Shown here: piece after piece, positions 1 to 7,217 of the stretch
How the letters are laid out: each line of letters opens with the position of its first letter
Position numbering within the stretch: position 1 is the first letter of the stretch
Source: Dysosmobacter segnis
Lineage (GTDB): Bacteria > Bacillota > Clostridia > Oscillospirales > Oscillospiraceae
Assembly (NCBI RefSeq): GCF_014297285.1
Contig: NZ_JACOQI010000043.1
Location: 1 to 7,217 of the forward strand
Direction of reading: 5' to 3'
DNA: 7,217 nucleotides
The notes under the pieces: model-generated
Told to the model about the DNA's origin: nothing
Database searches by the model: none
What the model saw: only the letters and a program-made list of their open reading frames with translations
Program-made: the position numbers and the translations under genes

Positions 1-49
1 AAGAGGGAGAGAAACTCTGCTGATACCCTCTGTTTTTTGCTCGTGCCAT
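1..49 (-). CDS. 5' end of an unidentified gene, possibly a recombinase (truncated by window edge)
   Basis: Only the first 16 codons are inside the window, reading leftward: the peptide starts MARAKNRGYQQSFSPS. The start is well supported by AAGGAGG four bases upstream of the ATG (54-60) and by a near-consensus promoter at 81-109. The short basic, polar opening resembles the leader that precedes the catalytic domain in some large serine recombinases of Clostridia mobile elements, and a recombinase would fit next to a sigma-like factor and a DUF6870-like protein. That identification is a weak memory-based inference: no catalytic residue is visible. What is solid is that a well-expressed gene begins here and leaves the window. 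Confidence 0.7.
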   Translation of the reverse strand, partial: MARAKNRGYQQSFSPS

Positions 50-80
50 TGTTCCTCCTTCCCTATCACATTACACTTAT

Positions 81-109
81 ATTATAACTCTGTCCGGGGA
101 GGACAACAA
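81..109 (-). promoter_or_regulatory. Promoter of the left-edge gene
   Basis: On the minus strand TTGTTG (104-109) is followed after exactly 17 bases by a perfect TATAAT (81-86). The start codon of the left-edge gene is about 25 bases beyond the expected transcription start. A 23-bp palindrome (121-143) lies about 11 bp upstream of the -35 and could be an operator or activator site for this promoter. Confidence 0.7.
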
Positions 110-120
110 GGATGCCTCCA

Positions 121-143
121 CTTCGGGACACTTTGTCTCGAAG
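121..143. repeat. 23-bp palindrome, copy 1
   Basis: Arms CTTCGGGACA and TGTCTCGAAG around a CTT centre, with one imperfect pair. It is 22/23 identical to 1353-1375 and related to 6994-7016. It lies between the terminator of the DUF6870-like gene and the -35 of the left-edge gene, so it may be a protein-binding site. As plus-strand RNA the imperfect pair becomes a G-U wobble, so it could also fold as a hairpin. Confidence 0.75.
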
Positions 144-184
144 AAGCAAAACGAGCTGTAACCGAAGTTACAGCCCGCTTTTTT
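144..184 (-). terminator. Terminator of the DUF6870-like gene, probably bidirectional
   Basis: On the minus strand an 8-bp perfect core (GCTGTAAC/GTTACAGC) closes a TTCG tetraloop with a C-G pair, the very stable C(UUCG)G loop. The stem extends to about 15 bp (148-162 with 167-181) with two G-U pairs and ends in TTTT then GCTTC. In the other direction a run of six T (179-184) follows the stem. The stop codon of the upstream gene (168-170) lies within the left arm. Confidence 0.85.
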
Positions 185-434
185 GCCGGAGCAGGAAGTC
201 CGTCAGTGTGTCCTGCAAGGACGGCCCGCTTTCCGCAAATTCAATCTTTACACCGATCCCACCGATGCAAAAGCAGTATGGATTTTCTACCGCCTGCAAA
301 AACAGAGCGATCCGCTCCTCCCGGGGGAGAGAGGTGTCAAAGGCCATACCGCTCACATCCGGCAGGGACTCGGGAGCCACTGCGCCGATGTCAACGCTTT
401 TCATTTGTTCCAGTTCCTTTGCCGTTAATCTCAC
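168..434 (-). CDS. Small DUF6870-like mobile-element protein (88 aa)
   Basis: An 88-residue soluble, acidic-looking protein of unknown function. The pattern MRLTAKELEQMKSVDI near the start, then a LPREERIALFLQ segment and ENPYCF...GGIGVKIEF, matches my recollection of DUF6870, a family of small proteins next to sigma-like factors and recombinases in Firmicutes mobile elements. The start is GTG (432-434), chosen because AAGGAGG (441-447) sits seven bases upstream; no better ATG is available. It follows the sigma-like factor on the same strand after a long structured leader, and precedes the left-edge gene. Its last codons and stop run into a terminator hairpin. No catalytic motif or membrane segment is visible. 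The gene is likely real; the family name is less certain. Confidence 0.75.
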   Translation of the reverse strand: MRLTAKELEQMKSVDIGAVAPESLPDVSGMAFDTSLPREERIALFLQAVENPYCFCIGGIGVKIEFAESGPSLQDTLTDFLLRQKSGL

Positions 435-866
435 GGTAAAACCTCCTTATCAAAAATAGGATACGCCTCCCGCATATCGTGGGGAAACGCAAGAGGGCAG
501 CACCTAAACGATGCTGCCCTCTTGTCTCACTCCATGTAAGTATAAAATAGAGAACGCCGCTCCCATTTTCTTGCCCTGTCCAAAGACAACCATACTCAGA
601 GCGGCGTTCCCTCGCAGATAAGAGGGCAGCTGGGGAGACAGGCGGCCAGCCTGTCCTATGCCGGATCGTGGCCGTGGCTTGGCCCAGCCCAGTTGCGGCG
701 TTGGCGTTGTTCGCTCATTCTTCCAAAGAAAAAGTCACAGCGCACCCGCCGTCCGGCTCCTCGGACTATGCCCGGGGCCGCCGCTGTTTATCTGCGGAAA
801 GAAGAATATCTTCTTTCATAAACCGAGACATTTTTTCATCATTTCCAAGTGGGGAAAATGAAAAAA
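435..866 (-). other. Gene-free structured region between the sigma-like gene and the DUF6870-like gene
   Basis: These 432 bases hold no convincing gene but many stems. From right to left: a weak A/T-rich hairpin directly after the sigma stop codon (831-866, no U-run after it), a perfect 9-bp stem GAAAGAAGA/TCTTCTTTC (797-817), short GC stems near 751-766, a 7-bp stem GACAGGC/GCCTGTC (637-655), an 11-bp stem GAACGCCGCTC/GAGCGGCGTTC (552-609), and a 12-bp stem at 491-523. I see no clear promoter for the DUF6870-like gene; a TATACT-like run near 540-550 lacks a matching -35. It may be a long regulatory leader or contain a small RNA. Confidence 0.6.
491..523 (-). promoter_or_regulatory. 12-bp hairpin in the leader of the DUF6870-like gene
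   Basis: AAGAGGGCAGCA (491-502) and TGCTGCCCTCTT (512-523) form a perfect stem around a 9-base loop. No strong U-run follows on either strand, so it is not a standard terminator. A third copy of the arm, AAGAGGGCAGC at 620-630, can pair with 513-523 instead, giving two mutually exclusive folds. Confidence 0.55.
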
Positions 867-1277
867 TCAAAAAGTTTTTTTCATGCGCTCAAGGCCACGC
901 TTGATCGACTGGCGGACAGACTCCTCGTGTACGCCCTCGGCCTCGGCAATTTCCTTGATGCTCTTTCCGAGAATGATGTGGGCATCAATCCTGCGGCCCT
1001 GGATCTCCGGTAAAGAGTTGAGTGCGTTCCACAGACGGATGAACAGCTCCATGCGCTCCAGAAGCTCCTGGGGCGTTGGCTCATGCAGGCAGGCAGAATA
1101 TTCGATCCCGTCATCGCAGTCCAGAGAATACTGCGCCTTATGCCGGGAGAGCCGCCGCTGGTAGGCCATTTCATAGCGGGCATCGGCCTTGAATACCTCG
1201 GCCACCTCGTCAGAAACTTCGATAAGCTGATCCTGCGTGTACCAATAATAAAAATCTTTCAAATTGATAGTAGTCAT
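867..1277 (-). CDS. Sigma-70-like factor of mobile-element type (136 aa)
   Basis: A small RNA polymerase sigma-like protein, likely controlling element genes. The N-terminal motif DFYYWYTQDQLIEVSDEV, the following YEMAYQRRLSRHKAQYSLD segment (about 35-52) and the C-terminal helix-turn-helix (about 105-131, KSIKEIAEAEGVHEESVRQS) match a family I recognise from Firmicutes integrative elements. It has a region-4-like half but no obvious full region 2, so it may act as a partial or accessory sigma factor, comparable in position to Orf7 of Tn916. The start ATG (1275-1277) is chosen because GGAGG lies eight bases upstream; longer upstream readings lack a ribosome site. Its codons look GC-richer than the cargo genes to the right. 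A terminator-like hairpin (1390-1422) and the second palindrome lie in its leader, suggesting control by attenuation or a bound regulator. Confidence 0.85.
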   Translation of the reverse strand: MTTINLKDFYYWYTQDQLIEVSDEVAEVFKADARYEMAYQRRLSRHKAQYSLDCDDGIEYSACLHEPTPQELLERMELFIRLWNALNSLPEIQGRRIDAHIILGKSIKEIAEAEGVHEESVRQSIKRGLERMKKTF

Positions 1278-1352
1278 CGTAAAATCCTCCATTTCAGTTT
1301 GTTCGGGGTTGGTCGGAAACGAAATGGAGCAACGGCGGAGAACGGCACCGCA

Positions 1353-1375
1353 CCTCGGGACACTTTGTCTCGAAG
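1353..1375. repeat. 23-bp palindrome, copy 2
   Basis: Differs from copy 1 (121-143) at one base, and is in the same orientation. It lies in the leader of the sigma-like gene, six bases beyond the TTTTGCTT that follows a terminator-like hairpin. Copy 1 follows the same TTTTGCTT directly, so the repeat unit is really hairpin plus TTTTGCTT plus palindrome. Confidence 0.75.
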
Positions 1376-1380
1376 TCTGG

Positions 1381-1422
1381 AAAGCAAAATGCGCCTGTGC
1401 GACACAAGGCCGCACAAGCGCA
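1381..1422 (-). terminator. Terminator or attenuator ahead of the sigma-like gene
   Basis: On the minus strand TGCGCTTGTGCG (1411-1422) pairs with CGCACAGGCGCA (1390-1401) across a 9-base loop: 12 pairs, one of them a G-U that would be a mismatch on the other strand. TTTT, GC and TTT follow (1381-1389). It would stop leftward transcripts coming from about 1720 before they reach the sigma-like gene. Confidence 0.65.
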
Positions 1423-1612
1423 CGAAAAAGTATTATCGGTTATGTACTGTTTAATTTCATGTTCAAAACCGAACTGCTCCGACGGAGGGGCTACGCTTTT
1501 TTTAGCTGGTGCAGATCACGCGAACAATGAAATAATAAAATGAACACGGCAAAATAACCTCCCATCGGCTACCGTGTCCCTACAAGTCGTCATTGGTTTG
1601 TGTAGACGCAAA

Positions 1613-1709
1613 GAAACGGCGGCTCTGAAAATCAAAGCCGCCGTTTCAAATGGGCGTGTTGATAGGCTGCTGTACGACGGCTTTTTTTCTTTTGCCGTCG
1701 TGCGGCAGC
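1613..1709 (-). promoter_or_regulatory. Alternating hairpin leader (candidate attenuator or small RNA)
   Basis: Four arms share one sequence. In transcript order on the minus strand: ACGACGGC (1694-1701), GCCGTCGT (1674-1681), a GAAACGGCGGCT arm (1636-1647) and AGCCGCCGTTTC (1613-1624). Arms 1-2 pair perfectly (8 bp, extended by GCTGC/GCAGC outside), arms 3-4 pair perfectly over 12 bp, and arms 2-3 can pair over 8 bp with one G-U. The region starts about 10 bases after the expected start of the transcript from the promoter at 1727-1758. The loop of hairpin 1-2 is almost pure A on this strand (T on the other). The U-run after arm 4 is weak. Confidence 0.55.
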
Positions 1710-1726
1710 TTGTTCCTTTTGCGCTT

Positions 1727-1758
1727 ATCTTAACAAGCAATCCTCACAGAAATGTCAC
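1727..1758 (-). promoter_or_regulatory. Orphan response-regulator-type promoter pointing left
   Basis: The box GTGACATTTCTGTGAGG (1742-1758, minus strand) is identical over 17 bases to the one before the ABC genes (5097-5113). It is followed after 9 bases by TAAGAT (1727-1732) as -10, the same gap as in the other two copies. No good -35 is present, as expected for an activator-dependent promoter. No gene begins close downstream. Confidence 0.65.
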
Positions 1759-1791
1759 TGACACACGCTGTTTCGACAGAATAATGGGCTG

Positions 1792-1815
1792 AAATCTCAC
1801 GAACCTGTGAGATTT
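1792..1815. promoter_or_regulatory. Upstream palindrome of the orphan promoter
   Basis: AAATCTCAC and GTGAGATTT around a 6-base centre. It aligns with the palindrome at 5147-5170 and lies the same 33 bases from the direct-repeat box, although the 33 bases between are not alike. The GTGA-containing arms resemble the half-sites of the box, so it may be a distal response-regulator site in inverted orientation. Confidence 0.5.
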
Positions 1816-1817
1816 GA

Positions 1818-1845
1818 AAAACCGGGAGAATAATCTCCCGGTTTT
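1818..1845 (-). terminator. Terminator of the ABC transporter genes, bidirectional
   Basis: AAAACCGGGAGA and TCTCCCGGTTTT form a perfect 12-bp stem around a 4-base loop, beginning 12 bases after the permease stop codon and ending in TTTT. The symmetric A/T ends allow function in both directions. Confidence 0.9.
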
Positions 1846-1857
1846 CATCGCAAATAT

Positions 1858-4368
1858 TTAATTCTGCCGCAGTCTCTCTACAACGCTTTGCTTAACATTT
1901 TGCATGAAAGTTATGACGGGGGTTGCCAAGCAGACCAGCAAAACAATAGCTGCGACAACCAACAGAGAAATTACAGGATAGTGAAAAGCTGCATAAGGAA
2001 CCATTCTTCTAAAGGCTGAGTATATTGGAATATATATCGCTGTTCCCAGTGTGGCAAGCAGTAGGAAAGAAATACTCCAATAATACCCGCCTTCCCAAAG
2101 CAATACATTTCTAATTTGCTTTTTCGTCATTCCTATACTTTCAAGTGTTGCAAATTCATGTTTCCGAGTATTTACACTAACAACCATTGTGTTAATGAAA
2201 TTCATAATTCCTATCAGCAAAAATACAGCGGACAACCCTGCGGCTATAATCCTTGAGGTCAGCAAATATCCGGCCATTTCTTGCTGCTTTTCATATCGTG
2301 ACAGAATCGTAATGCCCGGTGACGAAGCAGTAATGGATTGAAGCTGCTCCATAATCCCTTTGTCATAACTGCTATCAATCGTATCAAAAGCAATCCGAAA
2401 GATTTTGGTTTCTCCAGACAACTTCTCTATTGCCTGCTCACTGATATACAAATCAGGGGCAGTACCTCTCTCATTTCCTCGACCACTCTGAAAATCAGCG
2501 TTCAGAAAGCCAGTTGCCACTGTAAAGACCTGTTCCCCGGACTCACCGACAACGGTGATTGCTTGCCCTGGCTGAATCAATAGGTTTCCCTCATCATCCG
2601 TCATAGCGGGCAAAACCACCAACTCTCCCTTTTCAAAGGCGGTTAAGTCAATAGGCTTATCAAGCGTTTTATTAAGTTCTTCGATATATCTGGAATCTAT
2701 TCCGTAAACGCCGCTCCAAAAATTATCTGTATAGTTTTTTCGTGTTTCCGCATTTGAAAGATCAAGACCTGATACGCCATCCAAGGAATCAATATATTTC
2801 CCGAATACATTTTCGTCGTAAATGACATCCATAGTGGGCCACGGTGAAGCAGAATAAGTGACGCGCAGATTTTCAATTCCCTGCATTGTTTCAATTTGCT
2901 GCAACATTTCATCAGTGAGCAGGTTTCCTTCTTCGGAAATGCTGTAAGTCAATGCGAAATCACTTTCTCCCCATTGATTTACAAAATTGTCGGGACTTAG
3001 GCTTGATAGTAGACCAGCAGAAACCAAAAACAATATTAAGCCTAAAAATAAGGACGCAAAAGTAAGGAAAGCGCTTTTAGGGTTTCTAAAAATATTATCT
3101 CGTGCCATCCGAGATAATTTTGTTCTATGGCTCTTATGATCTCGGTAACTCCTTGTATTTGCCTCCGTATAGCGTGAAGCCGCAACAGGAGAAATACTTG
3201 CAGCTATTTTCGCTGGTTTCATGCTGCCGATGATTGCAGTAAAAAATGTGAAGATTGCGGCACCCGCAAAAATAATGGGGGAAAAGGACACTATCTCCCC
3301 AAGCTCTGTATCGCTTGAGTACATCATATTCATGGCAAACGGAACAAGTCCAAGCGAAACAATACCACCGACAATCAGGCCGCTGGGAATACCGATCACC
3401 GCCGTTCTGAATATTTGAGAACGCACGATCCGCTTGATTTGTCTTTTTGTCGTGCCTATCGTTTTAAGCTGTCCATAGAATTGTGTATCTCTTGAAATTG
3501 AGATATACAGAATGTTATAAATCAGCAAATAGCCGCTGATAATGATAAAGACGATAATAGCAGCCAGTGGAAGAACAATTGTGGTGGAATTGCTCTGAGC
3601 AATAGGTACAATTTCAAAGGACTGACTTTCTGTAAACGAAATCTTCCGTTTTAGTTTTTCACAGGATCGCAGGGCATTACTGCCATCAGAAAAAGAAATC
3701 ATTGCGGTAGACACACCATCAAAGGGAAGCCCTGTTTGTGTTGCAAAAAGCTCCGAAACATAAGCGGCACCACGGTTGCCTGCACGTGAAGCCGAATAAT
3801 CTATGTAATAGCCCGACAAAACAAATTCATCGGAGATATATTGATAATCTGTTCCGAGTTGATAGGAAAGGAAAATATTCATCCCTATCTGTGGATCATC
3901 AATCCCCATTGCACGCAAAGCCCATGTAGGGAGCATAATTTCATTTTTTGCTTGCGGATAATCTCCGTGTATATCCGAAATTGTTGGTACACGGTGTTCT
4001 TGCCATTCTGTTTCGTCTATCCAAGTAATACTCAGCAGGGCATCGTCCATTCCAGATGTATCAATGCTGCCCAATCTCTGACTGACACCAACTACGGATA
4101 CCAAGCTGGATCGGCTCAATTCTTCATATTGTTCTTCTGAGAGGCTTGTAATTGCCACATCCGCAGTCGTGCCCATCGCACGAATTTGCTGCATTTGATA
4201 GGTTTCAAAATAACTGCACCCCAAACTAAATACAGATGTAATCATAAAGGCGGTCAAGAATAATGTGATGGTAACGAAAACATTTCTCTGCTTATTAGCG
4301 CGGTAGCTTCTTTTGGCAAGACGATTGATTGTTGCCTGATTATTGTTCCCAAATAAAATATCATCCAT
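1858..4368 (-). CDS. ABC transporter permease with two FtsX domains (836 aa)
   Basis: The membrane subunit of the ABC transporter, in the plasma membrane. Eight hydrophobic segments are visible at about 30-52, 262-290, 322-346, 363-384, 432-454, 706-731, 760-783 and 797-823. They form two repeats of one helix, a large external domain (about 53-260 and 455-700) and three helices. Each repeat carries the FtsX coupling motif after its second helix: QLKTIGTTKRQIKR (about 300-313) and TLESIGMTKKQIRN (about 742-755). This is closer to a fused double FtsX permease than to the ten-helix BceB layout with a single large loop. Start ATG 4368 is preferred over GTG 4377 because AGGGGG lies about eight bases before it. 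It follows the ATPase by 15 bases, so they are co-transcribed. Such pairs commonly export or dislodge antimicrobial peptides or lipids; the substrate here is unknown. Confidence 0.92.
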   Translation of the reverse strand: MDDILFGNNNQATINRLAKRSYRANKQRNVFVTITLFLTAFMITSVFSLGCSYFETYQMQQIRAMGTTADVAITSLSEEQYEELSRSSLVSVVGVSQRLGSIDTSGMDDALLSITWIDETEWQEHRVPTISDIHGDYPQAKNEIMLPTWALRAMGIDDPQIGMNIFLSYQLGTDYQYISDEFVLSGYYIDYSASRAGNRGAAYVSELFATQTGLPFDGVSTAMISFSDGSNALRSCEKLKRKISFTESQSFEIVPIAQSNSTTIVLPLAAIIVFIIISGYLLIYNILYISISRDTQFYGQLKTIGTTKRQIKRIVRSQIFRTAVIGIPSGLIVGGIVSLGLVPFAMNMMYSSDTELGEIVSFSPIIFAGAAIFTFFTAIIGSMKPAKIAASISPVAASRYTEANTRSYRDHKSHRTKLSRMARDNIFRNPKSAFLTFASLFLGLILFLVSAGLLSSLSPDNFVNQWGESDFALTYSISEEGNLLTDEMLQQIETMQGIENLRVTYSASPWPTMDVIYDENVFGKYIDSLDGVSGLDLSNAETRKNYTDNFWSGVYGIDSRYIEELNKTLDKPIDLTAFEKGELVVLPAMTDDEGNLLIQPGQAITVVGESGEQVFTVATGFLNADFQSGRGNERGTAPDLYISEQAIEKLSGETKIFRIAFDTIDSSYDKGIMEQLQSITASSPGITILSRYEKQQEMAGYLLTSRIIAAGLSAVFLLIGIMNFINTMVVSVNTRKHEFATLESIGMTKKQIRNVLLWEGGYYWSISFLLLATLGTAIYIPIYSAFRRMVPYAAFHYPVISLLVVAAIVLLVCLATPVITFMQNVKQSVVERLRQN

Positions 4369-4383
4369 CAATGTCACCCCCTG

Positions 4384-5049
4384 TCACTGTGCGATTTTTC
4401 CGTCCTCAATACGGATAATTCGGTCGGCAAGCTGGGCAATTTCATTGTTATGGGTAATCATTACAAGCGTTTGATGGAACTTCTGACTTGTAACTTTCAG
4501 CAAACCAAGAACATCACTACTTGTCCGGCTATCCAAATTGCCTGTCGGTTCATCTGCAAGTATAATAGCTGGTTTGGAAACAAGGGCGCGGGCAATCGCT
4601 ACACGCTGCTGCTGGCCGCCGGACAGATTGTTAGGCATACTGTTCAGCTTCCCATCGAGAGCCAACATTTTCACGACTTCATCCATAAACCGCTTGTCCA
4701 CGGTATCACCATCCAGCTCCACCGGCAGGACAATATTTTCATAGACATTCAGCACAGGAACAAGATTGTAATTCTGAAAGATAAACCCGATGTTACGTCT
4801 GCGGAAGATGGTAAGCTGTTCATCCTTGAGTTTCGATAATTCTTTCCCTTTTACTTTAATACTGCCGGAAGTTGGCGTATCTAACCCGCCCATCATGTTC
4901 AGCAAAGTAGACTTACCGCTGCCGGAAGTACCAACAATGGCAACAAATTCACCTTCCTCAATGGATAGGGTCACGCCATCCAATGCTTTTGTAATGTTCG
5001 GTTCGGTGCCGTAATATTTCTTCAAATCTGTCGTTTGTAATATGTTCAT
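4384..5049 (-). CDS. ABC transporter ATP-binding protein, MacB/SalX type (221 aa)
   Basis: The cytoplasmic ATPase that powers the downstream permease. All motifs are intact: Walker [10 protein letters not shown] (40-48), Q-loop Gln92 in [10 protein letters not shown], signature LSGGQQQR (142-149), Walker B IILADEP with catalytic Glu167, D-loop NLD (171-173) and switch His200. Length and the [10 protein letters not shown] pattern place it in the LolD/MacB/SalX branch, which works with FtsX-type permeases. The ATG at 5047-5049 is chosen with GGGTGG eight bases upstream; a GTG four codons earlier would overlap that site. It is the first gene of the transporter unit, about 25 bases after the expected start from the promoter at 5082-5113. 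Complete, no oddities. Confidence 0.95.
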
Positions 5050-5081
5050 ATAGAACACCACCCTTTCTTTTTGATGGCTCT

Positions 5082-5113
5082 ATCATAAAAGGTAAACCTC
5101 ACAGAAATGTCAC
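5082..5113 (-). promoter_or_regulatory. Response-regulator-type promoter of the ABC genes
   Basis: GTGACATTTCTGTGAGG (5097-5113, minus strand) contains two GTGA half-sites 11 bp apart, one DNA turn, as OmpR-family regulators bind. Nine bases later comes TATGAT (5082-5087) as -10. No consensus -35 is at the right distance, which suggests dependence on the bound activator, presumably the regulator encoded at 6219-6902. Confidence 0.7.
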
Positions 5114-5146
5114 GGGAAACAAAATACCTCTGTTTAATTAAATCTC

Positions 5147-5170
5147 AAATGTCATAGGCCTGTGACATTT
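5147..5170. promoter_or_regulatory. Upstream palindrome of the ABC promoter
   Basis: AAATGTCA and TGACATTT flank TAGGCCTG. It lies 33 bases from the direct-repeat box and 20 bases past the kinase stop codon. On the minus strand no U-run follows, so it is a poor kinase terminator there; on the plus strand a T-rich run follows, so terminator use in that direction is possible. The arms match the GTGACATTT half-site, favouring a distal regulator site. Confidence 0.5.
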
Positions 5171-5190
5171 TGTTTTTTAGCGTACTTATT

Positions 5191-6222
5191 TTATTGTCGA
5201 GGCAGAAAGACGGAAAAAGTTGAACCCCTCCCAACCTCGGATGTTACCCGGATATAACCGCCTTGCAAGGTTACGATCTCACGAGCCAGATATAGACCAA
5301 TACCAATTCCATCTACATCATGTACGATGTCCTCTCGATAGAAACGCTTGAAAATTGCTCCCTGATGCTGTTCTGAAATGCCAATGCCTGTATCTGCAAT
5401 GTCGATTTTCACATACATTTCCCAACTTTCAACCGAAACACGGATTTGACCGCCCTCCGGCGTATATTTCACTGCATTGTCCAAAATATTGAACAGTGCT
5501 TCGCTTGTCCATTTTCTGTCATGGGAAACGACCAAGTTCTCCGGGCAGTCCACTTGAACATTGATCTGTTTTTTCTCGGCGTTCAGAAGAATACCTCCCA
5601 ATGCGGCGGCAAGCGTGTCATAAAGCGGCTGGCTTTTCTTTTTCAGAGAAATAACACCTGTTTCCAAACGAGAGGTTTTAATCATAGCCTGCATGAGAAA
5701 ATCCAGTTTATCAAGCTGGCTGGCCTGTGCCGTTAGAAACTCTTTTTGTTTTTGCACAGGGACTTCATTTTCAAGCAGAGTGCTGTTAATCATTTTCAAG
5801 TTCGCAATCGGGGTCTTGACCTGATGGGAGATGTCGGAAATCAGTTCTTGCAGGTCAGCCCGTTCTTGTGCAATGCCGTTCTTGTTTTCCTGCATGACTT
5901 CATATAAACGGTTCAGCCGATATTCAATTTTATAGAAAAGACTTTCTTCTTCCACAGTCTGTTTCGGCTGCATATTCCCGGATAACATATCATCCATTAA
6001 ACTGCAAAAAGCATCGGAGAACATTGCCAGTTTGCGGCGAACCAGCACCATAAAACAAACAGCGCAAACCAGCACAAAAATGCCGAACAATAATACATAC
6101 CAGACAGCGGTTATATTTTGGGTCAGCCCATACAAAGCTGCTGAAACCGTCCCCATTGCCACCAGCAGGAGAACAGCAAAAAAGATACAGGCTTTGTTGA
6201 CGGAAAGTTTTCGCACATTCAT
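5191..6222 (-). CDS. Sensor histidine kinase with minimal external domain (343 aa)
   Basis: Membrane kinase that phosphorylates the adjacent response regulator. Two hydrophobic helices (about 11-33 and 39-61) are joined by only about five residues, so there is no extracytoplasmic sensor; a linker and coiled region leads to the H-box DISHQVKTP with His133. The ATPase domain has the N-box NILDNAVKYTP, G1 DTGIGIS, F-box FKRFYRED and G2 GIGIGLYLAREI. This is the intramembrane-sensing layout of BceS-like kinases, which take their signal from a partner transporter; the neighbouring ABC genes fit. The start ATG (6220-6222) is chosen because GGAGGAG lies just upstream and it overlaps the regulator's stop as ATGA, implying coupled translation. 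An ATG seven codons earlier lacks a ribosome site. Confidence 0.93.
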   Translation of the reverse strand: MNVRKLSVNKACIFFAVLLLVAMGTVSAALYGLTQNITAVWYVLLFGIFVLVCAVCFMVLVRRKLAMFSDAFCSLMDDMLSGNMQPKQTVEEESLFYKIEYRLNRLYEVMQENKNGIAQERADLQELISDISHQVKTPIANLKMINSTLLENEVPVQKQKEFLTAQASQLDKLDFLMQAMIKTSRLETGVISLKKKSQPLYDTLAAALGGILLNAEKKQINVQVDCPENLVVSHDRKWTSEALFNILDNAVKYTPEGGQIRVSVESWEMYVKIDIADTGIGISEQHQGAIFKRFYREDIVHDVDGIGIGLYLAREIVTLQGGYIRVTSEVGRGSTFSVFLPRQ

Positions 6223-6902
6223 TTCAGCACTCCTCCGATCCATATATAGCCCATACCATATACCGTTTTGATATACTGACGGTCAGGTGTTTCGATTTTG
6301 TTTCGTACCCGGCTGATCGCCGCAGTCAGAGCGTGTTCATCCACAAAATTTCTGTCTGCGTCCCACAGCTTTTCCAACAAGACTTGCCGGGTCAAAACAA
6401 TCTGCGGATTTTTCATCAGGATTTTCAAAAGTCGATATTCCAGTGGGGTGAATGTAAGTGGCTTTCCTGATAGAGTAGCACTCATTTCTGAAAAATTGAT
6501 GGTCAGTGTGCCATCCTCATAAGTATCACCACCATATTGTTTTGTCAGCCTACCCAGCACTACCGCTAATTTCTTTTGAAAGACGCTCATAGGGAAAGGT
6601 TTTGTCACATAATCCTCTGCGCCCAGTTCATACCCTTTGAGCATATCGCTTTCCATATCATTTGCGGTCAGAAAAATAATAACGGTATCAGGGCGACGCT
6701 CTTTTATTTCCCGGCAGAAGTCAAAACCGTTCCCGTCCGGCAAATTTACATCCAGCACAATCAGGTCATAGTCCTGCTTTGTCAAGAAACTACTGGCCAC
6801 TGATTTTGTCAGTGCAGAATCAACCGTATAGCCCGCAGTATTCAAGTTATAGCATAAAGTATTATTCAAAAGCCGATCATCCTCGACTACTAAAATTCGC
6901 AT
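6219..6902 (-). CDS. OmpR/VanR-type response regulator (227 aa)
   Basis: DNA-binding partner of the kinase. The receiver domain (about 1-115) has the acidic pair Asp8-Asp9, phosphoacceptor Asp51 in VLDVNLPDG, Thr79 and Lys101 in VTKPF. The C-terminal winged helix (about 130-225) has TPLEYRLLKILMKNP, the recognition-helix region ALTAAISRVRNKI and the wing YIKTVYGMGYIW. ATG at 6900-6902 is used, with AAGGAG at 6912-6917; a TTG twelve codons earlier would lie in the promoter. It is first in its transcript and shares ATGA with the kinase gene. Matching boxes before its own gene, the ABC genes and position 1727 suggest it regulates all three, which is an inference. Confidence 0.95.
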   Translation of the reverse strand: MRILVVEDDRLLNNTLCYNLNTAGYTVDSALTKSVASSFLTKQDYDLIVLDVNLPDGNGFDFCREIKERRPDTVIIFLTANDMESDMLKGYELGAEDYVTKPFPMSVFQKKLAVVLGRLTKQYGGDTYEDGTLTINFSEMSATLSGKPLTFTPLEYRLLKILMKNPQIVLTRQVLLEKLWDADRNFVDEHALTAAISRVRNKIETPDRQYIKTVYGMGYIWIGGVLK

Positions 6903-6924
6903 GGTATCACACTCCTTCATTTTC

Positions 6925-6956
6925 AGTATAGCACCCAAATGTCACAGAAACCTCAC
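6925..6956 (-). promoter_or_regulatory. Autoregulated promoter of the regulator-kinase genes
   Basis: On the minus strand GTGAGGTTTCTGTGACA (6940-6956) is followed after 9 bases by TATACT (6925-6930). It matches the box of the ABC promoter at 13 of 17 positions; the half-site endings (AGG and ACA) are swapped, with the same 11-bp period. The expected start lies about 16 bases before the ATG, giving a very short leader that just includes the ribosome site. Confidence 0.65.
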
Positions 6957-6993
6957 AATATTTCTGATTTTATTTTAGATACCAACCTCTGAT

Positions 6994-7016
6994 CTTCGGG
7001 ACAAATTGTCCCAAAG
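6994..7016. repeat. 23-bp palindrome, copy 3
   Basis: The core GGGACAA-A-TTGTCCC is perfectly symmetric, and CTT/AAG ends extend it to 23 bp with one mismatch. It shares the outline of copies 1 and 2 but has a more symmetric centre. It lies between the divergent regulator gene and the XRE-like gene and is not next to a terminator, so a DNA-binding role is more likely here than an RNA role. Confidence 0.65.
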
Positions 7017-7103
7017 TTATAGGTATATTGTACCTCACATTTCCGCGATCATCAATTTTGCGTATGTGAAATTAAATAGTCAGTAGTATGAAATACACAG
7101 TCG

Positions 7104-7132
7104 TTCAAATAATATCACATGAAATGTAAAAT
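7104..7132 (+). promoter_or_regulatory. Possible promoter of the XRE-like gene
   Basis: TTCAAA (7104-7109), a 17-base spacer and TAAAAT (7127-7132). The start codon at 7149 would follow about 10 bases after transcription starts, leaving little room for the AGGTGA ribosome site (7139-7144), so the call is tentative. Confidence 0.4.
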
Positions 7133-7148
7133 CATATCAGGTGATGTT

Positions 7149-7217
7149 ATGAAGATAGAACGAGATGAAAGACGCTTTGATTTTCACGATATAGGGCTCG
7201 CCATCAAGCGTGCAAGA
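7149..7217 (+). CDS. 5' end of an XRE-like helix-turn-helix regulator (truncated by window edge)
   Basis: The first 23 codons are present, reading rightward and leaving the window: MKIERDERRF then DFHDIGLAIKRAR. The pattern of a short charged leader followed by DF..IG.AIK.AR is the usual opening of the first helix of an XRE-family domain in small regulators found in Clostridia mobile elements. The start is supported by AGGTGA four bases upstream. It is divergent from the response-regulator gene, separated by 246 bp that contain palindrome copy 3, which could be its operator. The recognition helix itself is outside the window, so the family call rests on resemblance only. Confidence 0.65.
   Translation, partial: MKIERDERRFDFHDIGLAIKRAR

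Follow-up and report, generated by a model that had tools for sequence, protein, structure and literature searches.

Two-component systems of the BceRS-BceAB and CprABC types control ABC exporters of antimicrobial peptides. Resistance genes governed by leader-peptide attenuators are known from erm, msrD and tet(M), and in Tn916 the attenuator stands before tet(M). That induction of a resistance gene can be coupled to transfer is well known from Tn916 and tetracycline. Two papers on Tn916 likewise tie cargo induction to activation of the element (PMC9632896, PMC6540685).

We analysed a stretch of 7,217 nucleotides from Dysosmobacter segnis (contig NZ_JACOQI010000043.1, positions 1 to 7,217), referred to below as the window. 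Its minus strand carries, in this order, a response regulator gene, a histidine kinase gene, an ABC ATPase gene, an FtsX-type permease gene, a terminator, a promoter copy with no transporter behind it (the orphan promoter), a leader, a sigma-like gene and a DUF6870 gene. Genes were assigned by domain scans, promoters from the sequence, and the leader from sequence and folding:

6925..6956, minus strand: degenerate third box GTGAGGTTTCTGTGACA (6956-6940), 9-nt gap and TATACT, before the regulator gene
6219..6938, minus strand: response regulator of the OmpR/PhoB type (Trans_reg_C and Response_reg)
5191..6243, minus strand: histidine kinase, 350 aa
5082..5170, minus strand: ABC-operon promoter, with palindrome 5170-5147, 33-nt spacer, box 5113-5097 identical to that of the orphan promoter, 9-nt gap and TATGAT 5087-5082
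4384..5061, minus strand: ABC ATPase of the LolD/MacB type
1858..4377, minus strand: FtsX-type permease, 839 aa
1822..1841, minus strand: intrinsic terminator of the ABC operon, CCGGGAGATTATTCTCCCGG then TTTTT, 16 nt past the permease stop codon, -14.8 kcal/mol
1727..1815, minus strand: orphan promoter, whole
1792..1815, minus strand: 24-bp palindrome AAATCTCAC-N6-GTGAGATTT, predicted upstream regulator site of the orphan promoter
1742..1758, minus strand: 17-nt box GTGACATTTCTGTGAGG of the response regulator, lying in the -35 region, with two GTGA half-sites 11 bp apart
1727..1732, minus strand: orphan -10 element TAAGAT, 9 nt past the box
1709 to about 1389, minus strand: leader
1666..1709, minus strand: leader hairpin 1, conserved; the element backbone starts with it after many unrelated cargos
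1613..1647, minus strand: leader hairpin 2
1542..1579, minus strand: hairpin with the Shine-Dalgarno sequence GGAGG (1562-1558) in its loop and the leader-peptide start codon in its 3' arm
1491..1547, minus strand: leader-peptide ORF, 18 codons, MFILLFHCSRDLHQLKKA (..LHQLKKA)
1389..1423, minus strand: terminator-like hairpin before the sigma-like gene
867..1277, minus strand: sigma-like gene (Sigma70_r4_2, Pfam), 136 aa from ATG 1277, scanned as 867-1304
168..434, minus strand: DUF6870 gene

The cargo resembles the BceRS-BceAB and CprABC systems in its regulator, its kinase with a short N-terminal membrane part, its ABC ATPase, its FtsX-type permease and the direct-repeat box in the -35 region. 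It differs from them in having one extra promoter copy that drives no transporter. The leader is similar to the erm, msrD and tet(M) attenuators, with a short ORF, a good Shine-Dalgarno sequence, and hairpins and a terminator before the regulated gene; here, however, the gene behind the leader is the sigma-like gene of a mobile element. The likeness to Tn916 is that cargo induction would again be tied to element activation. The cargo lies upstream of the sigma-like gene and is co-directional with it, and mobility genes are found in the same type of element, outside the window: relaxases in the related loci L016, L055 and L074, a serine recombinase in L016, and integrases in L055 and L074. Several leaders precede a Sigma70_r4_2 and HTH_16 pair, which we take to be Orf7/Orf8-like of Tn916; in locus L091, Pfam places HTH_16 in the neighbour of its Sigma70_r4_2 gene. 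In contrast to Tn916, the attenuator-like leader stands behind the cargo and before the sigma-like gene, it is found with cargos unrelated to one another, and in the window a terminator is followed by a further promoter, predicted to be under regulator control.

The organization of the orphan promoter is that of an OmpR/PhoB-type promoter. Direct-repeat half-sites with an 11-bp period overlap the -35 region, GTGACATTTCTGTGAGG stands 9 nt before the -10 element, and an OmpR-type regulator, presumably the cognate one, is encoded nearby (6219-6938). A 33-nt spacer separates the palindrome (1815-1792) from the box (1758-1742). The preliminary description had read 1727-1815 as a further copy of the ABC promoter, and this copy is real: the full palindrome, the 33-nt spacer, the 17-nt box, the 9-nt gap and the -10 element are all arranged as in the ABC promoter. 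The likeness exceeds chance: the two promoters share a 33-nt repeat of 85% identity. The segment behind the cargo terminator scored 20.5 against the cargo, while the best of 250 dinucleotide shuffles reached 14.5. Transcription from the orphan promoter is predicted to begin near 1720, and the degenerate box and -10 element before the regulator gene predict autoregulation.

To place these spacings, we surveyed 28 box rows in the window and its relatives, many of which are close relatives of one another. The best -10 element stood 9 nt from the box in 22 of the 28; in L004 10786, L060 and L017 2765 another -10 candidate stands at that distance, and the rows L002, L006 and L054 7083 resemble chance matches. 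An upstream palindrome with at least 8 of 9 arm pairs was present in 19 of the 28 rows, 15 times at 33 (32) nt and four times at 23 nt; in the orphan promoters the distance is 33 nt, not 23. The difference between 33 and 23 nt is one helical turn, which fits two protein sites required to lie on the same face of the DNA. This palindrome scan missed three second-transporter promoters, which have weaker palindromes, and found L079 without one.

A search of public genomes with the permease returned 12 loci, with Roseburia and Blautia among the carriers. Genome samples were also searched for the 15-nt box core: it occurred in 9 of 397 genomes from one family, in 3 of 247 from another and in 1 of 148 from an order, counts that include genomes already known. 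Conservation of the promoter in relatives that keep the flanking genes had been set beforehand as the test that could refute the earlier proposal. The proposal withstood it: all 12 records in which this cargo stands directly before the leader (the window, L003, L007, L008, L009, L010, L011, L016, L054, L055, L074 and L075) were found to keep the palindrome, the box, the -10 element and the 19-nt distance to hairpin 1; they amount to six distinct orphan sequences from about three lineages. L007-L011 and L016 were reached through the permease, hence independently of the box. L054, L055, L074 and L075 were reached through the box core, which is present in their transporter promoters too, and L003 solely through its orphan box. 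Three permease types, 28-31% identical between types, occur among the 12 records, in which the ATPase is at least 85% identical: the L003-type permeases (L003, L054 and L074) are 28-29% identical to that of the window, and the L004 type (L075) 28%. L003 keeps the orphan promoter in a locus whose ATPase gene is 5'-truncated and where, in the stretch fetched, the cargo's own two-component genes are not adjacent. In the available stretches of cargo loci without the leader (L012, L014, L017, L076, L077, L083, L084 and the L004/L073 type), some of which end at contig ends, no orphan copy was present at up to three mismatches. L013 has a decayed orphan promoter, and no leader hairpin was found there.

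The orphan region was then divided into 41 regulatory positions (palindrome arms, box and -10) and 67 others (loop, spacer, gap and 19-nt tail). In four comparisons, which were chosen from 15 pairs, share lineages and are not independent as tests, there were 0 regulatory and 18 other changes between the window and L070 (Fisher p 9e-5), 1 and 19 between the window and L003 (p 6e-4), 1 and 23 between L061, which is the L075 element, and L070 (p 7e-5), and 1 and 8 between the window and L061 (p 0.15, not significant). The CTCAC/GTGAG arms are common to all six orphans, whereas the ABC promoters compared carry arms of the GTCAC/GTGAC type; refreshing by gene conversion is therefore unlikely. Recent copying from the window's ABC promoter was also considered and is unlikely, since each of the six orphan variants departs from it in arms and spacer. 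Thus the earlier view that the spacing reflects selection and not plain duplication is upheld, both by the 9-nt and 33/23-nt spacings in relatives and by the conservation of the regulatory positions.

The permease appears to be an exchangeable part of this cargo. Permease genes only some 28-31% identical have been swapped between conserved ATPase and promoter flanks (L054, L074 and L075 compared with the window), and kinase, regulator and ATPase stay 80-95% identical while the permease changes, a modular swap of the transport subunit. In L012, a remnant that matches the C-terminal part of a sigma-like gene comes right after the permease (about 10501-10655), and the leader and orphan promoter are gone. 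The box is not confined to the first transporter either: in L004 and L073 a second box precedes a second ABC pair. L004 had suggested that the orphan is a relic of a lost second ABC transporter. This was rejected, as L075 holds that promoter and the orphan as well: it has the second-transporter promoter, a remnant of the corresponding permease gene and then a third box, the orphan beside the leader, which is 92% identical to the region of the window over 99 nt. In L083 (4262 and 6830) the box also precedes genes without a match to the ABC queries, and the regulon may be wider than transport. A near-mode search of plasmids with the gene for the second ABC ATPase of L004 gave no match, and with the window permease two stretches of a viral collection matched a pattern, neither of which was confirmed.

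We next consider what lies downstream of the promoter. The preliminary description had listed a structured leader, a terminator-like hairpin and the sigma-like gene, with no close gene before the latter. These three elements stand, and what had been overlooked is the 18-codon leader peptide (1547-1491). Mechanical ORFs also exist downstream, for example one of 74 codons from TTG 1740 to 1516 that begins upstream of the predicted transcript start; the first supported ORF is that of the leader peptide, followed by the sigma-like gene (start 1277). The leader RNA of the window folds with a z of -7.97, and at the gathering score Rfam gave no match to a known RNA family in the window. The segment 1721-1572 has 88% identical DNA in Enterococcus plasmids, where it lies between bcrD and a sigma-70-like gene. 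Among the open-access papers searched, to go by their titles and the openings of their abstracts, none describes this leader or orphan cargo promoters.

A short ORF follows GGAGG in 22 of the 26 leaders examined for one, the exceptions being L035, L039, L044 and L088. Seventeen of these 22 were aligned, near-duplicates being left out together with L010, in which the A run is one base longer and the frame is shifted. Across the 17, the three hairpins show compensatory changes: 95.4% of pair cells are standard, and 18 cells carry double changes against a shuffled mean of 5.5, with far lower values in slid registers. For further pair types in the leader, the count was not above that of shuffles (259 of 500). 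In all 17, GGAGG is in the loop of a hairpin with ATG or GTG in its 3' arm, and the ORF from this start codon is in frame with an invariant A7 run at a distance of 29, 35, 41, 44 or 47 nt. The KK core of the leader peptide is present in 26 of 37 contexts; four of the others have another short ORF, and in seven none was found, some of these being at contig ends. We know of no attenuator peptide that matches the LxKKA core.

A terminator lies between the leader ORF and the sigma gene in all 12 leaders, out of 26 examined, in which the sigma start was located by script. Sigma-like ORFs follow in most other leaders that were read, but not in L035, L039 and L088. The gene after the leader was scanned in the window, L009, L091 and L092, and in all four it is Sigma70_r4_2 (Pfam). 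Two features of a leader-peptide attenuator are present, namely a conserved short ORF with a ribosome-binding site, and a terminator between this ORF and the putatively regulated gene (in the window, 1423-1389). As far as alignment and folding tell, the leader is a portable module that consists of hairpins, a leader peptide and a terminator and is usually followed by a sigma-like gene.

Some individual leaders deserve mention. L009 and L011 combine the cargo and orphan of the window with a leader that diverges some 112 nt in and runs on into a different sigma-like gene, and backbones appear to have been exchanged inside the leader. One genome (L140, 4262 and 8095) has two leaders with nearly the same peptide 3.8 kb apart, each behind its own gene, in the manner of tandem cassettes. 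The leader ORF of L087 encodes a very short peptide, MRLRIDRYLSKKA, which starts with an RLR motif, presumably reminiscent of macrolide-stalling leaders.

How different cargos join the leader was examined in 37 distinct contexts with a good first hairpin, near-identical contexts having been dropped beforehand. Gene calls in this survey were mechanical (longest ORFs), terminators were called by a simple folding rule, and some genomes are incomplete. The last cargo gene reads towards the leader in 35 of the 37 (p 1e-8 against one half, with contexts taken as independent). In 26 of the 35 co-directional contexts there is no terminator and the gap is at most 70 nt, so that read-through is possible. 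Seven have a terminator call, namely the window, L003 (a weak call), L090, L091, L092, L124 and L128, and two (L134 and L033) have a longer gap without a terminator call. L134, L136, L123 and L033, which have no terminator call, showed no promoter copy when tested; L136 has a poorer first hairpin and is outside the 37 contexts.

L124 and L128 were found after the idea had formed and served as a test of whether a promoter copy lies behind the terminator. Both carry a repeat of their own ABC promoter between terminator and leader, with scores of 22.5 and 30.0 respectively, and none of 40 shuffles scored as high; for L124, none of 250 did. For the orphan segment of L124, the ABC promoter of L128 is a better match than that of L124 itself (36.0 over 101 nt compared with 22.5), because of a one-base shift in L124's own copy; the promoter type is the same and in register. 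The regulators of L124 and L128 are 53-54% identical to that of the window, and their orphan boxes carry the half-site GGACATTT, as do their own ABC and regulator promoters. Since the spacer motif TTCTGTCGAA is common to L124, L128 and the window orphan, we take these orphans to be homologous promoters that changed along with their regulator.

L091 belongs by Pfam to a different, unrelated two-component cargo, with a weak TrbL match nearby. Its ABC promoter and its pre-leader segment agree at 35 of 52 positions in register, and the next best register in the locus gives 26; the scan of the whole cargo was equalled by 11 of 250 dinucleotide shuffles and is thus less striking. L090 has both promoter copies as well, with an orphan block nearly identical to that of L091 and a different terminator and downstream flank. 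In L092, 19 of 22 positions agree; its whole-cargo scan was equalled by 2 of 250 such shuffles, and no clear -10 register is retained. It was set aside as a fully independent case and is suggestive only. To judge from these predicted sites, a clear terminator at the end of a cargo is followed by a second copy of that cargo's promoter. This holds for the window type, for its two diverged relatives and for one cargo unrelated to them.

The reading that we favour, with a probability of roughly two in three, is that the signal which induces the ABC operon acts through the conserved copy of the cargo promoter as well, so that transcription also enters the leader and the sigma-like gene. The phosphorylated regulator would bind the box and the palindrome, and transcription would begin near 1720. 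Translation of the leader peptide might gate read-through of the terminator at 1423-1389, as in known attenuators, and the sigma-like protein might then raise the expression of excision or transfer genes. Most other cargos are not separated from the leader by a terminator, and their transcripts could run on into it. A strong cargo terminator would block this route, and it is there that a separate copy of the cargo promoter follows the terminator. A cargo with a terminator would need its own promoter again behind it, and the window has such a copy. On the simplest account, transcription of the cargo would be meant to bring with it that of the leader and the sigma-like gene. The earlier suggestion that the promoter is aimed at the sigma-like gene, in the manner of Tn916 read-through, gains support from the layout in relatives.

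The same promoter could instead be a relic: having once served a further operon of the regulon, which disappeared as the cargo became joined to the backbone, it would survive by chance. Reuse of the promoter module before several operons (the second ABC pair of L004 and L073, the other genes of L083) would fit this, as would the position of the orphan, which ends at the joint of cargo and backbone. Against it, the regulatory positions change less than the bases between them, and the arms that set the orphans apart from the ABC promoters make it unlikely that gene conversion has kept them fresh. In addition, the orphan box of L124 and L128 holds the half-site of its cargo, and L013, in which no leader hairpin was found, has a decayed version, a single case. 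We consider chance survival unlikely. Hardly different in our estimate, and likewise improbable, is a short regulatory RNA of about 330 nt that would contain the leader peptide and end at 1423-1389 without feeding the sigma-like gene. The strong terminator-like hairpin before that gene and the highly structured RNA (z -7.97) agree with it. Yet the recurrence of a terminator and a sigma-like gene after the leader peptide, in 12 of 12 leaders with a located sigma start and with a sigma-like ORF in most others read, is what would be expected of an attenuator, and the start of the leader peptide sits in a hairpin with compensatory changes. The copy could also be a homology patch for cargo exchange by recombination, or a site that titrates the regulator, and be no promoter at all. 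Permeases have indeed been exchanged between conserved flanks, but the -10 element and the 9-nt gap are kept, which neither role needs, and we regard this explanation as very improbable.

If cargo induction does drive the sigma-like gene, the coupling known from Tn916 would be one case of a wider scheme, in which the RNA module is shared and the cargo promoters are interchangeable; peptide antibiotics or bacteriocins in the gut might then make the elements that respond to them more mobile. Sequence thereby offers a starting point for testing what sets off their transfer. It is tempting to go further, on a view that we hold tentatively and at somewhat less than even odds, and to see the leader as a portable input port: a peptide-gated RNA attenuator that stands, in many mobile elements of Firmicutes, before the sigma-like gene and to which each cargo would connect its own inducible promoter, by read-through if it has no terminator and by a copied promoter if it has one, so that the signal of the cargo would command the mobility of the element.

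A library of defence systems gave one marginal match for the sigma-like protein (mad1, E 0.00031) and one for the permease (E 5.8e-5), and generic ATPase matches for the second ABC ATPase of L004. A near-perfect palindrome of the type CTTCGGGACA-N3-TGTCTCGAAG occurs at 119-143, 1351-1375 and 6992-7016, flanking the sigma-like gene and, in the third copy, lying ahead of the regulator gene, and is possibly the operator of a backbone regulator. Variants of the same palindrome flank the sigma-like gene of L045.
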